Assembly (NCBI GenBank): GCA_020248865.1 | Contig: JADCGS010000012.1 | Coordinates: forward strand, 1-64,000 | Reading direction: 5' to 3' | DNA length: 64,000 nt | DNA from: Burkholderiales bacterium | GTDB lineage: Bacteria; Pseudomonadota; Gammaproteobacteria; Burkholderiales; Burkholderiaceae_F | Program-made: the position numbers and the translations under genes | Part shown: positions 1,342 through 6,545 of the stretch, one piece after another | How the letters are laid out: every line of letters starts with the position of its first letter | Position numbering within the stretch: the first letter of the stretch is position 1 | Notes under the pieces: generated by a model | Seen by the model: the letters and a program-made list of their open reading frames with translations, nothing else | The model's database searches: none | What the model was told of the DNA's origin: nothing

Positions 1342-4300
1342 ATGTCCGCCTACGCCGAGCTGCATTGCGCCAGCAACTTCAGCTTCCTGCGCGGCGCCTC
1401 GCACCCTGAAGAACTGGTGGAGCGCGCGCTGGCGCTGGAGTACGCGGCGCTGGCCATTACCGACGAGTGCTCGTTTGCCGGCAGCGTGCGCGCGCACCTG
1501 GCGCTGGCAGAACTGCGCGCGGACGACGCCGCGGCGCGCGACTTCAGGCTGGTGCACGGCACCGAGATTCAACTGTCCGACGGGCCCCGGCTGGTGCTGC
1601 TGGCGCAGACGCGCGCCGGCTACGGCAATCTGAGCCAGCTCGTCACGCTGGCGCGTCGCCAGGCGCCCAAGGGCGGCTACCGGCTCACGCGCGCCGACAT
1701 CGAGGCGCATCCGCAGTGGCTTGCCGACACGCTCGCGCTGCTGATCCCAACCGCCCGAAAATCGGGGTCAGACCCCGATTCTCCGGGGTCCAGGCAGCCA
1801 AAGCACCCGCGCAGCTCGACGTCGGCGTCCGAAAAATCGGGGTCTGACCCCAATTTCCTGGGGTGGGTGCAGGCGCTGTGGCCGCAGCGCTGCTGGGTTG
1901 CGGTGGAACTGCTGCGTGGCCCGGACGACGCGGCGCACCTGGCGCGCTGCGAGGCGCTGGCGCGGGCGCACGGCGTGCCGCTGCTGGCTTGCGGCGACGT
2001 GCACATGCATTCGCGCGCGCGCAAGCGGCTGCAGGATGTGCTGACGGCCGTGCGGCTCAAGCTGCCGCTGGCGCAGGCGGGCCGGCAACTGCTGCCCAAT
2101 GCGGAGCGCTACCTGCGGCCGCGCTACCGGCTGGAGCGCATCTACCCGCCGGAGCTGCTGGCCCAAACGCTCGCGGTGGCGCAGCGCTGCACGTTCTCGC
2201 TCGACGAACTGCGCTACGAATACCCCGAGGAGATCGTGCCGCCGGGCGAGACACCGGCCACCTGGCTGCGCAAGGCCACCTACCTGGAGGCGCAGCGGCG
2301 CTACCCGCAGGGCATGCCGGAGCGCGTGCGCCGGATCGTCGAGCACGAGCTGGCGCTGATCGCGCAGCTGAAGTACGAGCCGTACTTTCTCACCGTATAC
2401 GACATCGTGCGCTTTGCACGCTCGCAGGGCATCCTGTGCCAGGGGCGCGGCTCGGCGGCCAACTCGGCGGTGTGCTACTGCCTGGGCATCACCGAGGTCG
2501 ACCCGGCGCGCATGAGCGTGCTGTTCGAGCGCTTCATCAGCAAGGAGCGCAACGAGCCGCCGGACATCGACGTGGACTTCGAGCACCAGCGGCGCGAGGA
2601 GGTGATGCAGTACATCTACGCCAAGTACGGCCGTCACCGCGCGGCGCTCACGGCCGCGCTGCACACCTACCGCCCGCGCGGCGCGCTGCGTGACGTCGGC
2701 AAGGCGCTCGGCCTGTCGCTCGACCAGGTGGACAAGCTCGCCAAGACCATGGCGTGGTGGGATGGCCGCCGCATCAGGCCGGAGCGCTTGCAGGAGGCCG
2801 GCTTCGATCCCGACAACCCGCTGATCGCACAGGTGGTGGAACTGGCGCAGCAGCTCGTCGGCTTTCCGCGGCACCTGTCGCAGCACTCGGGCGGCTTTGT
2901 CATCGCACGCGAGCGGCTCGACCGGCTGGTGCCCATCGAGAACGCGGCGATGGCCGACCGCACCGTGATCCAGTGGGACAAGGACGACCTCGACGCACTG
3001 GGCCTGCTGAAGATCGACGTGCTGGCGCTCGGCATGCTCTCCTGCGTGCGGCGGGCGCTGGAGCATGTCAATCGCTTCTACCCCGACCCGGTCGGGCACG
3101 TGGCGGGCAAGGCGCCGCCGGGCGCGGCAGTGCCGCTGCCGCCGGCCGGCGCACCGCGCACGGTCCAGATGCAGCACCTGCCGGCCGAGTGCCCGCGCGT
3201 GTACGACATGCTGTGCAAGGGCGACTCGCTCGGCGTGTTCCAGATCGAGAGCCGGGCGCAGATGAACATGCTGCCGCGGCTGCGCCCGCGCACCTTCTAT
3301 GACCTGGTGATCGAGACGGCCATCGTGCGCCCCGGCCCGATCCAGGGCGGCATGGTGCATCCGTACCTGCGGCGGCGGCAGGGGCTGGAGCCGGTCACCT
3401 ACCCGTCGGAGGCGGTGCGGGGCGTGCTGGAGCGCACGCTCGGGGTGTCGATCTTCCAGGAACAGGTGATGCAACTGGCGGTGGTGGCGGCCGGCTTCAC
3501 GCCGGGCGAGGCCGACAAGCTGCGCCGCGCGATGGCGGCGTGGCGGCGCAAGGGCGGCATCGGGCCGTTTCGCGAGCAGCTCATCGACGGCATGCTGGCG
3601 CGCGGCTACACCGCCGAGTACGCCGAGCAGATCTACCGGCAGATCCAGGGCTTCGGCGAGTACGGCTTTCCGGAGAGTCATGCGGCAAGCTTCGGCCTGC
3701 TGGTCTACGTCTCGTCCTGGCTCAAGTGCCATGAACCTGCGGCCTTCTGCGCCGCGCTGCTGGACTCGCAGCCGCTGGGCTTCTACGCGCCGGCGCAGAT
3801 CGTGCGCGATGCGCTGGGGCATGGTGTGGAGATCCAGCCGATCGACGTCACCGCGAGCGACTGGACCTGCCGGCTCGATCCCTCGACGGCCGACGCCACG
3901 CAGCCGGCGGTGCGCCTGGGGCTTCAACTCGTCAACGGCATGAGCGAGGAAGCGGGCCTGCGCATCGAGTGCGCGCGGCGCGACCGGCCGTTTGCGAGCG
4001 TGGCCGACCTCGCCCGCCGCGCGCGCCTGAACCGCGGCGAGCTGGACGCGCTGGCCGCCGCCGATGCGCTGGCCACGCTGTCGGGGCACCGGCGCCGCGC
4101 GCTGTGGGACACGCTGGGCATCGACGCCAGCGCGCCGCGCGCCGTGCCGCTGACGGCCGAGGCGCCCGGGGCCGAGGCCGCGGTCGAGCTCGTTGCACCG
4201 ACCGAGGGCCAGGACATCGTCGCCGACTACGCGCACACCGCGCTCACGCTGCGGCGCCATCCGCTGGCGCTGCTGCGCGAGCGTTTCAACGCCATGCGGC

Positions 4301-4632
4301 TGCAGCCGGCGCGCGACGTGCTCGCCGCGCGCCCGCGCCAGACCATCCGCACCACCGGCATCGTGACCTGCCGCCAGCGGCCGGGCACCGCCAGTGGGGT
4401 GACCTTCGTGACGCTGGAGGACGAGACCGGCGTGATCAACGTGGTGGTGTGGTCGAGCGTGGCCGAGCAGTACCGGCGCGAGCTGCTCGGCTCCACCCTG
4501 CTTACCGTCTACGGCCACGTGGAGCGCGTGCAGACCCGGGACGCGGCGGTGGTCCATCTGATTGCCAAGCGGCTGGTCGATCACTCGCCGCTGCTGGGCG
4601 GGCTCAGCCTGCCGAGCCGGGACTTCCACTGA
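1342..4632 (+). CDS. dnaE2: Error-prone DNA polymerase III alpha-like subunit DnaE2 (ImuC)
   Basis: Translesion DNA polymerase of the DnaE2/ImuC family, 1,096 residues, acting in SOS mutagenesis. An N-terminal PHP domain (starting near AELHCASNFSFLRGASH) is followed by the C-family polymerase core. Catalytic aspartates sit in PDIDVDF (D410, D412), with the third in LLKIDVLALGM. Helix-hairpin-helix and OB-fold regions follow, the latter near GVTFVTLEDETGVINVVVW. Usual partners are imuA and imuB, but neither is next to it here; intI is directly upstream. There is no obvious ribosome binding site. Residues about 139-173, in the PHP domain, are an extra low-complexity segment made by repeated palindromes. 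The frame stays open, so the enzyme may still work. Confidence 0.95.
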   Translation: MSAYAELHCASNFSFLRGASHPEELVERALALEYAALAITDECSFAGSVRAHLALAELRADDAAARDFRLVHGTEIQLSDGPRLVLLAQTRAGYGNLSQLVTLARRQAPKGGYRLTRADIEAHPQWLADTLALLIPTARKSGSDPDSPGSRQPKHPRSSTSASEKSGSDPNFLGWVQALWPQRCWVAVELLRGPDDAAHLARCEALARAHGVPLLACGDVHMHSRARKRLQDVLTAVRLKLPLAQAGRQLLPNAERYLRPRYRLERIYPPELLAQTLAVAQRCTFSLDELRYEYPEEIVPPGETPATWLRKATYLEAQRRYPQGMPERVRRIVEHELALIAQLKYEPYFLTVYDIVRFARSQGILCQGRGSAANSAVCYCLGITEVDPARMSVLFERFISKERNEPPDIDVDFEHQRREEVMQYIYAKYGRHRAALTAALHTYRPRGALRDVGKALGLSLDQVDKLAKTMAWWDGRRIRPERLQEAGFDPDNPLIAQVVELAQQLVGFPRHLSQHSGGFVIARERLDRLVPIENAAMADRTVIQWDKDDLDALGLLKIDVLALGMLSCVRRALEHVNRFYPDPVGHVAGKAPPGAAVPLPPAGAPRTVQMQHLPAECPRVYDMLCKGDSLGVFQIESRAQMNMLPRLRPRTFYDLVIETAIVRPGPIQGGMVHPYLRRRQGLEPVTYPSEAVRGVLERTLGVSIFQEQVMQLAVVAAGFTPGEADKLRRAMAAWRRKGGIGPFREQLIDGMLARGYTAEYAEQIYRQIQGFGEYGFPESHAASFGLLVYVSSWLKCHEPAAFCAALLDSQPLGFYAPAQIVRDALGHGVEIQPIDVTASDWTCRLDPSTADATQPAVRLGLQLVNGMSEEAGLRIECARRDRPFASVADLARRARLNRGELDALAAADALATLSGHRRRALWDTLGIDASAPRAVPLTAEAPGAEAAVELVAPTEGQDIVADYAHTALTLRRHPLALLRERFNAMRLQPARDVLAARPRQTIRTTGIVTCRQRPGTASGVTFVTLEDETGVINVVVWSSVAEQYRRELLGSTLLTVYGHVERVQTRDAAVVHLIAKRLVDHSPLLGGLSLPSRDFH
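1757..1860. repeat. Two in-frame REP-like GGGGTC/GACCCC palindromes inside dnaE2
   Basis: A perfect 21-bp palindrome (1760-1780; arms AATCGGGGTC and GACCCCGATT around a single A) is repeated 75 bp later, slightly degenerate, at 1835-1855. Flanking bases are also shared (CGAAAA before, CGGGGT or TGGGGT after), so this is a direct duplication of a palindrome-bearing unit. The 75-bp offset is 25 codons, so both copies are read as KSGSDPD/N. Similar GGGGTC-GACCCC palindromes are common dispersed repeats in beta- and gammaproteobacterial genomes, usually outside genes. Confidence 0.85.
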
Positions 4633-4663: not shown

Positions 4664-4788
4664 AGAGCCTGTGAAGAAATCTACTGCGCGGTCCGATCTC
4701 GCGCCTGCGCTGCTCGCCGTACCGCTCTGTACGGGTCCGCTGCTCGGCGCGACCTCGGGCCGCTCGCGACGATTTCTTCACAGGCTCT
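4664..4788. repeat. 125-bp imperfect palindrome between dnaE2 and leuA
   Basis: The ends are perfect 18-bp inverted repeats (4664-4681 and 4771-4788; arm AGAGCCTGTGAAGAAATC). The interior also folds: GGTCCGATCTCGCGCC on the left pairs closely with its counterpart on the right, down to a CCGTAC/GTACGG stem with a 6-nt loop near 4719-4736. The element fills the gap between the convergent genes dnaE2 and leuA, and its right end reaches the leuA stop codon. It looks like a MITE/BIME-type dispersed repeat and could act as a two-way transcription terminator. Confidence 0.85.
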
Positions 4789-6335
4789 CAGGGCGCCAGC
4801 GAGGTCTGCGGGTTCAGCCGCTCCACATCGCTGTACAGCTTGTTGAGCGCGCTCAGATACGCCTTGGCGCTGGCCGCCACGATGTCCGGATCGGCGCCTA
4901 CGCCGTTGACGATGCGCCCGGCCCGCGCCAGCCGCACCGTCACCTCGCCTTGCGACTCGGTGCCGCTGGTGATGGCATTGACGCTGTATAGAAGCAGCTC
5001 CGAACCGCTGCCGACCCGGCTCTCGATGGCCTTGAGGGACGCATCCACCGGGCCGTTGCCGTCGCTCTCGGCCGCAACCTCCTGGTTGCCGATCGACAAC
5101 ACCACCTTGGCGTGCGGCCGCTCGCCGGTTTCCGAGTGCTGCGACAGCGACAGCAGCTTGAAGTGCTCGTCGTGCGGCGTGACCGACTCGTCGGAAAACA
5201 GCGCCTGAATGTCCTCGTCGAAGATCTCGGCCTTGCGGTCGGCCAGGTCCTTGAACTTGGCAAACGCCGCGTTCATCTCGCTCTCGCTGTCCACCGGGAT
5301 GCCGAGTTCCTGCACGCGCTGCTTGAAGGCATTGCGGCCCGACAGCTTGCCCAGCACGATCTTGTTGGCGTGCCAGCCCACGTCCTCGGCGCGCATGATC
5401 TCGTAGGTCTCGCGCGCCTTGAGCACGCCATCCTGATGGATGCCCGAGGCGTGCGCGAAGGCGTTGGCGCCGACCACCGCCTTGTTCGGCTGCACCACGA
5501 AGCCGGTGATGCCGGAGACGAGCTTGGAGGCGGGGATGATCTGCTGCGTCTCGATGCCCACTTCCAGGCCAAAGTAGTCGCGCCGCGTCTTGACCGCCAT
5601 CACCACCTCTTCGAGCGAGGTATTGCCGGCGCGCTCGCCCAGGCCGTTGACGGTGCACTCGACCTGCCGCGCACCGCCGATCTTGACACCCGCCAGCGAG
5701 TTGGCTACCGCCATGCCGAGGTCGTTGTGGCAGTGCACGCTCCAGACGGCCTGGTCCGAGTTGGGGATGCGCTCGCGCAGGCTGCGGATGAACTCGCCAT
5801 ACAGCTCGGGCACCGCGTAGCCCACCGTGTCCGGGATGTTGATGGTGGTCGCCCCCTCCTTGATCACCGCTTCGAGCACCCGGCACAGGAAGTCGGCTTC
5901 GGAGCGATAGCCGTCCTCGGGCGAGAACTCGACGTTGTCGGTGAACTGGCGCGCAAAGCGCACCGCCAGCTTGGCCTGCTCGAACACCTGCTCCGGGCTC
6001 ATCCGCAGCTTCTTTTCCATGTGCAGCGGGCTGGTGGCGATGAAGGTGTGGATGCGCTTGTTGTCGCTGCCGGCCAGCGCCTCGGCCGCACGGCCGATGT
6101 CGCGGTCGTTGGCGCGTGCCAGCGAGCAGACCGTGGAGTCCTTGATGGCGTTGGCAATGGCACGCACGGCCTCGAAGTCGCCGTTGCTGCTGGCCGCGAA
6201 GCCGGCCTCGATCACGTCCACGCGCAGCCGCTCGAGCTGCTTGGCGATGCGCAGCTTTTCTTCCCGGGTCATCGAGGCGCCGGGGCTTTGCTCGCCGTCG
6301 CGCAAGGTGGTGTCGAAGATGATCAGGCGTTCCAT
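4788..6335 (-). CDS. leuA: 2-isopropylmalate synthase
   Basis: First committed step of leucine biosynthesis: condenses acetyl-CoA with 2-ketoisovalerate. The protein is 515 residues, the normal size for the long LeuA form. It starts [20 protein letters not shown], carrying the HMGL-like metal and substrate signature DTTLRDGEQ, and contains the [13 protein letters not shown] motif. The C-terminal third is the regulatory LeuA dimer domain for leucine feedback. Start 6335 is chosen because CAGGG lies about 7 nt upstream; an ATG two codons earlier (6341) is also possible. A leucine-rich leader peptide and a separate promoter lie upstream. The neighbours pssA and psd match a common betaproteobacterial order. 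Confidence 0.97.
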
Positions 6336-6418
6336 GGTCATGCCCTGGCGTGAAGGTGCGGTCTTCCCTGCCTGCCCCATGCAAGCGGGAGGTGGTGCAC
6401 GGATTGTGGGAGGGGGAG

Positions 6419-6508
6419 TCAGCTGCGCGCGGGGCGCAGCAGTAGCAGCGGCAGTCCGGCGAAGGCCGGCGCCGCAGGAGTGAGCGCGATCGAGGATGCG
6501 CGAGTCAT
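6419..6508 (-). CDS. Putative leucine leader peptide of leuA (LeuL-like)
   Basis: A 29-codon frame ends 83 nt before leuA. It starts [11 protein letters not shown] and ends with [13 protein letters not shown]: six leucines in 29 residues, five of them in LPLLLL. The run uses CTG, CTA, CTG and CTG, including the CTA codon that also marks the enterobacterial leuL leader. The end of the frame forms a GCTGCGC/GCGCAGC hairpin. The predicted -10 element lies only 7 nt upstream of the ATG, so the mRNA may be leaderless. The arrangement fits ribosome-mediated attenuation by leucine, but I see no clear U-rich terminator before leuA. Confidence 0.6.
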
Positions 6509-6515
6509 GGCGAAC

Positions 6516-6545
6516 ACTATAGGCGCAAACGCGCGCCGCATGCAA
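6516..6545 (-). promoter_or_regulatory. Predicted promoter of the leader peptide and leuA
   Basis: On the minus strand TTGCAT (6545-6540) and TATAGT (6521-6516) are 18 bp apart. The start of transcription would fall at or within a few bases of the leader ATG at 6508. It lies in the 270-bp gap between pssA and leuA, so leuA can be expressed apart from psd-pssA. Confidence 0.6.

Follow-up and report, generated by a model that had tools for sequence, protein, structure and literature searches.

A conserved leucine-rich leader upstream of leuA in the Burkholderiales, predicted to be translated from a leaderless mRNA

In a genome of the Burkholderiales, a short leucine-rich open reading frame (ORF) lies between a promoter and leuA, so close to the promoter that two questions arise: is it a leucine-sensing leader peptide translated from a leaderless mRNA, and by which step would it then control leuA? 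Leucine attenuators are textbook examples of gene control, and the first-pass annotation of this DNA had described a single instance of such a leader. Comparison with related loci places it in one family that extends across the order and occurs in two architectures, termed class R (which includes the locus considered here) and class T.

The leader ORF and predicted promoter of leuA

The stretch of DNA analyzed (64,000 nucleotides; hereafter, the window) carries leuA at 4788 to 6335 on the minus strand. This putative regulated gene encodes a 2-isopropylmalate synthase of the leuA_bact type, as typed by NCBIfam. Its start is most likely the ATG at 6335; a second in-frame ATG lies at 6341, and a putative Shine-Dalgarno (SD) sequence, AGGG, is found at 6346 to 6343. 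Elsewhere in the window, by eye only, an ORF on the plus strand (223 to 1302) resembles an integron-type tyrosine recombinase, and an adjoining ORF on the same strand (1342 to 4632) is DnaE2-like polymerase in appearance.

The leader ORF (leuL; 6419 to 6508, minus strand) is unannotated and leucine-rich. It comprises 29 codons, from the ATG at 6508 to 6506 to the stop codon TGA at 6421 to 6419, is predicted to be leaderless, and ends 83 nt before leuA. Its putative control codons, LPLLLL (CTG CCG CTG CTA CTG CTG; 6437 to 6454, minus strand), form a conserved Leu run. The −35 element TTGCAT (6540 to 6545, minus strand), as read from the sequence, is followed after an 18-nt spacer by the −10 element TATAGT (6516 to 6521, minus strand), which lies 7 nt from the leader ATG. 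The sequence therefore agrees with the initial description of a 29-codon ORF containing LPLLLL and a CTA codon, placed between a promoter and leuA with its ATG 7 nt from the −10 element. A generic sigma-70 scan did not return this promoter because its −35 element fits TTGACA at only three of six positions; the support for the predicted promoter is its conservation across class-R loci, 69 of 71 of which have a TTG −35 element at 16 to 18 nt from the −10 element.

Conservation, specificity and geometry of the leader

Loci were collected via LeuA from 61 genomes of the window's family and order and as 80 named Burkholderiales loci, supplemented by a family sample and by 80 upstream regions spread over the order. 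A Leu-run ORF, taken as any short ORF in which three or more of five residues near the C terminus are Leu, precedes leuA at 139 of the 200 betaproteobacterial loci, so the conservation of the Leu run among relatives, on which the first-pass annotation had staked its proposal, held up. In the closest relatives (LeuA 85 to 95% identical), the leader C terminus is ...LLRPARS or a near variant, and the N-terminal part varies freely in both sequence and length. Across class R, the leader is 22 to 38 codons long with its frame kept, and R-x-A-R is conserved directly behind the Leu run.

Some genera of the window's family have leuA without a leader (L016, L017, L021, L022, L027, L028, and others); at some of these loci it is missing because leuA follows the upstream gene almost directly. 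In Pandoraea (L040, L042, and L050), ORFs lie 7 nt from TATATT with the Leu run mostly lost, which looks like decay of the leader. At L039, L089, L092, L102, and L106, another coding frame ends ahead of leuA; by eye, it resembles the C-terminal portion of a long-form isopropylmalate synthase, which would make these tandem leuA genes.

The specificity of the leader was assessed with a covariance model trained on 50 class-R loci, none of them from the window or its genus, and covering 51 positions around the leader end. In the window's 3.5-Mb genome, the model had one significant match, at the window site (E value, 9e-7; next E value, 3.2). Because the Leu-run ORF recurs at 139 of 200 loci and is the sole significant match in the genome to a genus-excluded model, its presence in the window is not attributable to chance. 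Across 150 genomes of the order, the model gave 61 matches in 60 genomes. When their positions were compared with those of the collected leuA genes, and the 15 that remained were read individually, the next gene proved in every case to encode a 2-isopropylmalate synthase: of the leuA_bact type at 47 sites and of the leuA_yeast type at 14, three of which were typed by NCBIfam and the other eleven by shared N-terminal sequence. The leuA_yeast-type protein is only about 30 to 33% identical to the LeuA of the window, and the 14 cases are independent of locus choice because the model was trained only on leuA_bact upstream regions. Since the leader precedes both synthase types, it appears to track enzyme function rather than one gene lineage, and its association with isopropylmalate synthase is strong evidence for leucine-related control. 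Among 249 genomes drawn from the phylum, matches occurred only in the window's genome and in one other of the same order, and no similar leaderless leader was found near ilvB of the window's genome. The leuA_yeast-type genes behind this leader type are long forms (L231 to L244, in 14 genomes), and one genome, G060, has the leader before both types.

The choice of Leu codons differs between leaders and the genes behind them. CTA accounts for 133 of 414 Leu codons (32%) in 73 leaders, compared with 15 of 2,740 (0.5%) in their leuA genes (Fisher P = 1e-107), and the bias persists in class R alone (14 of 152 versus 10 of 822; P = 1e-6). The rare CTA codon that had been noted within the Leu run of the window is thus part of a general enrichment. 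A sensor of charged tRNA-Leu would favor a rare Leu codon, and leuL of Escherichia coli likewise uses rare Leu codons.

The promoter geometry was examined in 110 leader ORFs selected by peptide only, each with a single in-frame ATG and with no promoter criterion; −10-like hexamers with at least five of six matches were counted within 60 nt upstream of the ATG. The leaders gave 70 such matches, 62 of them at 6 to 8 nt before the ATG. At 377 other ATGs in the same regions, 26 matches were scattered and the 7- and 8-nt positions were empty; because the loci share ancestry, the counts do not amount to independent trials. An SD-like word 4 to 16 nt before the leader ATG was present at 0 of 71 class-R and 1 of 52 class-T loci, compared with 68 of 71 and 49 of 52 before leuA, in a locus list that was partly ranked by the −10 element and carries a mild bias against SD words. 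With −10 elements peaking at 6 to 8 nt and SD words nearly absent, the leaderless geometry is conserved; it strongly supports a leaderless mRNA with a predicted transcription start at about 6508, on or beside the first base of the leader ATG. The leaderless status first suggested for this ORF accordingly stands, as a prediction with which both promoter spacing and SD absence agree. The occurrence of leaderless mRNAs as such has been documented for Cupriavidus metallidurans (PMC7563307) and for Burkholderia cenocepacia (PMC4603805).

Two architectures behind one leader

In class R, the leader ends in LLLRxAR(S). In the window, this end coincides with hairpin 1 (6422 to 6440, minus strand), which spans the last Leu codon and RPARS; its arms, GCTGCGC (6440 to 6434) and GCGCAGC (6428 to 6422), form a perfect 7-bp inverted repeat around CCCGC. 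In 33 distinct class-R sequences, a median of 1.3% of synonymous recodings were as stable as hairpin 1 (2.7% for the window). Third codon positions at the leader end are conserved too, and the Arg and Ala codons there are almost always CGC and GCG, AT-rich genomes included. Covariation in 50 aligned loci gave a helix score not above that of shuffles and is uninformative because the core pairs never vary. At six loci (L024, L026, L129, L130, L162, and L192), a hairpin of other sequence replaces hairpin 1, and in four of these the stop codon lies in or beside the loop, all as judged by eye. Burkholderia leaders (L081 and others) have a weak hairpin only and were left unclassed. By analogy, hairpin 1 is probably a synchronizing transcription pause hairpin. 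In E. coli leuL, a transcription pause is known at a hairpin close to the leader end (PMC9291695).

The leader stop codon is followed in the window by a C-rich, G-poor tract (6387 to 6418, minus strand), and the class-R tract contains 42% C and 11% G, a composition that fits the C-rich, G-poor region by the leader stop of a tna-like Rho-dependent leader-peptide attenuator. The tract holds a conserved motif, CCCACAAYYCG (CCCACAATCCG in the window; 6410 to 6400, minus strand), variants of which occur at 20 to 26 of 71 class-R loci, against about one or fewer expected, and at 0 of 52 class-T loci. In a subset, the motif is followed by G[CT][AT]GTACC; loci with the motif include L018, L138, L139, and L239. 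The tract is a possible candidate for a Rho-loading site. Farther on lies hairpin 2 (TCCC GCTTGC / GCAGGC A GGGA; 6365 to 6390, minus strand), a weak folded structure without a U-tract and with little distinction from shuffles (z, +0.4 in the window; mean z, −1.2 in class R). A terminator scan called no intrinsic terminator with a U-tract in the window or its nearest relatives and did not call hairpin 2.

Class T comprises Comamonadaceae (leader end, ...LLLPPHGRRR), Rubrivivax and relatives (...LLLLGVPRAR), Cupriavidus and Ralstonia (...GLLGHQVGTRAR), and Polynucleobacter, in which strong terminators with a U-rich tail lie ahead of leuA. The last codons of the class-T leader can pair with the 5′ arm of the terminator, in most cases as ACGGGC/GCCCGT, and the two sides show matched changes (TCGGGC/GCCCGA in L038 and CACGGGC/GCCCGTG in L055). 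Such complementarity exceeds that of dinucleotide shuffles in a longest-exact-complement test (mean z, 0.76 ± 0.10). A 9-bp match in Cupriavidus (CAGGTCGGG/CCCGGCCTG) contains G-U pairs and was missed in the grouped complement run because only Watson-Crick pairs were counted. On this anatomy, class T is a classical attenuator carried by a predicted leaderless leader. In L085, L096, L107, and other Comamonadaceae, a segment 15 to 30 nt behind the terminator (e.g., TGCGGGT or CTGCAGGT) is the complement of the loop and 3′ arm of the terminator (ACCCGCA or ACCTGCAG); the two seem to vary together and could form an additional alternative structure.

The same longest-exact-complement test placed complementarity between the class-R leader end and downstream RNA at chance (z, −0.02 ± 0.14). 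It was used in place of duplex energies because the latter miss the class-T antiterminators: in GC-rich sequence, these could not be told apart from mononucleotide shuffles. Subject to this insensitivity to class-T antiterminators, duplex energies of class R were at chance for leader and SD, leader and hairpin 2, and C-rich tract and SD, and pairing of the Leu run with the leuA SD gave a mean z of −0.21 ± 0.12. Class R therefore has no output structure identifiable by terminator scan or complement test. Of the two roles that the first-pass annotation had offered for the hairpin at the end of the ORF, a pause stem remains plausible, and an antiterminator stem is unsupported, given the chance level of complementarity.

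Proposed control of leuA, alternatives and known systems

It is quite probable that a leaderless, leucine-sensing leader controls leuA in cis, whatever the output step. Transcription would begin on the A of the leader ATG or on a neighboring base, so that the leaderless mRNA is translated from its 5′ end, and hairpin 1 would pause RNA polymerase long enough for the first ribosome to close up. Under a shortage of charged tRNA-Leu, that ribosome would stall in the LPLLLL run and occupy hairpin 1; when leucine is plentiful, it would reach the leader stop and leave, and these two ribosome positions would decide leuA expression. We infer the pausing, the stalling, and the direction of control; stalling on Leu codons would follow from the leader anatomy and from established leu attenuators. 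For the output in class R, we tentatively propose, as the leading candidate, Rho-dependent termination, with Rho loading on the C-rich tract once it is exposed by the departure of the ribosome. The sign of such control needs an extra assumption, because a ribosome stalled upstream would not cover this tract: either coupling between RNA polymerase and the stalled ribosome would persist, or the effect would come from the presence of that ribosome on hairpin 1.

The main rival to a Rho-dependent output is translational control, by which leader translation would govern access to the leuA start or the supply of ribosomes there, whether through altered structure, coupling, or reinitiation, and transcription would not terminate prematurely. 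It would suit a class that lacks a terminator and has the leuA start only 83 nt past the leader stop, and it has a precedent in the Actinobacterial LEU element, a terminator-less leuA leader for which pairing between Leu codons and SD was proposed (PMC1262725). However, pairing of the class-R leader or C-rich tract with the leuA SD does not exceed chance in what is a low-power test, and sister lineages use termination; we regard translational control as possible but rather unlikely. Hairpin 2 could also act as a U-less terminator in classical attenuation, as class-T relatives have the classical mechanism and many class-R loci have a second hairpin between the stop codon and leuA. That reading is improbable given that there is no U-tract in the window or close relatives, that the leader end is not complementary to downstream RNA, and that hairpin 2 of the window is no more stable than shuffles. 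Classical attenuation by a terminator, the precedent from which the first-pass annotation had argued, is thus not borne out in this lineage, and Rho-dependent or translational control is the more likely output of class R.

Two further explanations would dispense with sensing through tRNA-Leu. The conservation of R-x-A-R right after the Leu run across the class might reflect nascent-peptide arrest, with the LLLRxAR C terminus itself stalling the ribosome on leucine or another ligand rather than through a shortage of tRNA-Leu. We consider this very improbable: conserved third codon positions and a hairpin more stable than synonymous recodings point to RNA, L024, L026, L129, and L130 lose the residues but keep a hairpin, and the CTA bias points to tRNA. 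Even less credible is a chance, untranslated frame over a conserved promoter or RNA element, for although the stop-proximal part is conserved as DNA, the frame is kept over 22 to 38 codons, Leu and CTA are enriched, and the ATG stays at a fixed distance from the −10 element.

Returning to a leucine-sensing leader with Rho as its possible output, we postulate, with less than even confidence, an order-wide module in which a leaderless leader, a hairpin, and the CCCACAAYYCG segment would control isopropylmalate synthase without an intrinsic terminator, before two distant leuA families, via ribosome-governed Rho access or a mechanism undescribed for leuA; elsewhere in the order, leaders of this kind come with a classical terminator as the output.

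Leucine attenuators and leader peptides on leaderless RNA are known; what appears to be new, within the literature searched, is a predicted leaderless leucine leader in betaproteobacteria. Rfam gave no relevant match in the window at E values up to 10, and 20 relatives representing both classes yielded none that reached the gathering score; the leader peptide matches neither a Pfam nor an NCBIfam model. The literature searched contained no betaproteobacterial leuL, leaderless or otherwise; the proteobacterial attenuation survey of Vitreschak et al. (2004) lay outside that search and may list class-T cases. Like the enterobacterial leuL of leuABCD (Rfam Leu_leader), the leader described here is a Leu-run leader with rare Leu codons and a hairpin near its end, located before leuA, and class T adds a terminator and antiterminator. 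Unlike enterobacterial leuL, it is predicted to be leaderless, lacks an SD and an Rfam match, precedes leuA alone or leuA_yeast-type genes, and, in class R, shows neither an intrinsic terminator nor an antiterminator. The LEU element of Actinobacteria is likewise a Leu-run leader before leuA with no obvious terminator, for which a pseudoknot and Leu codon/SD pairing were proposed, but it belongs to another phylum, and such pairing is near chance here in a low-power test (PMC1262725). In Sinorhizobium meliloti trpL (rnTrpL), the leader mRNA starts at the ATG of the leader ORF, as is predicted here; that system, however, concerns tryptophan and trpE(G) in alphaproteobacteria, and its termination product was shown experimentally (PMC7298713). 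The 28-amino-acid LeuL before leuABCD of Campylobacter jejuni likewise has rare Leu codons near its C terminus but was found via a ribosome binding site, its RNA ends shortly past the stop codon, and the organism is an epsilonproteobacterium (PMC3847290).

Leaderless mRNAs have few well-defined roles, and an order-wide leader peptide dependent on one would provide a measurable case, in which a ribosome must load at the 5′ end for leucine to be sensed. That one sensing leader is found with two outputs, one with a terminator and one without, opens a way to study the evolution of attenuation from intrinsic termination to Rho-dependent or translational control, or in the reverse direction. For a clade in which environmental and industrial strains are numerous, the leader would also represent a so far uncatalogued means of controlling leucine synthesis.
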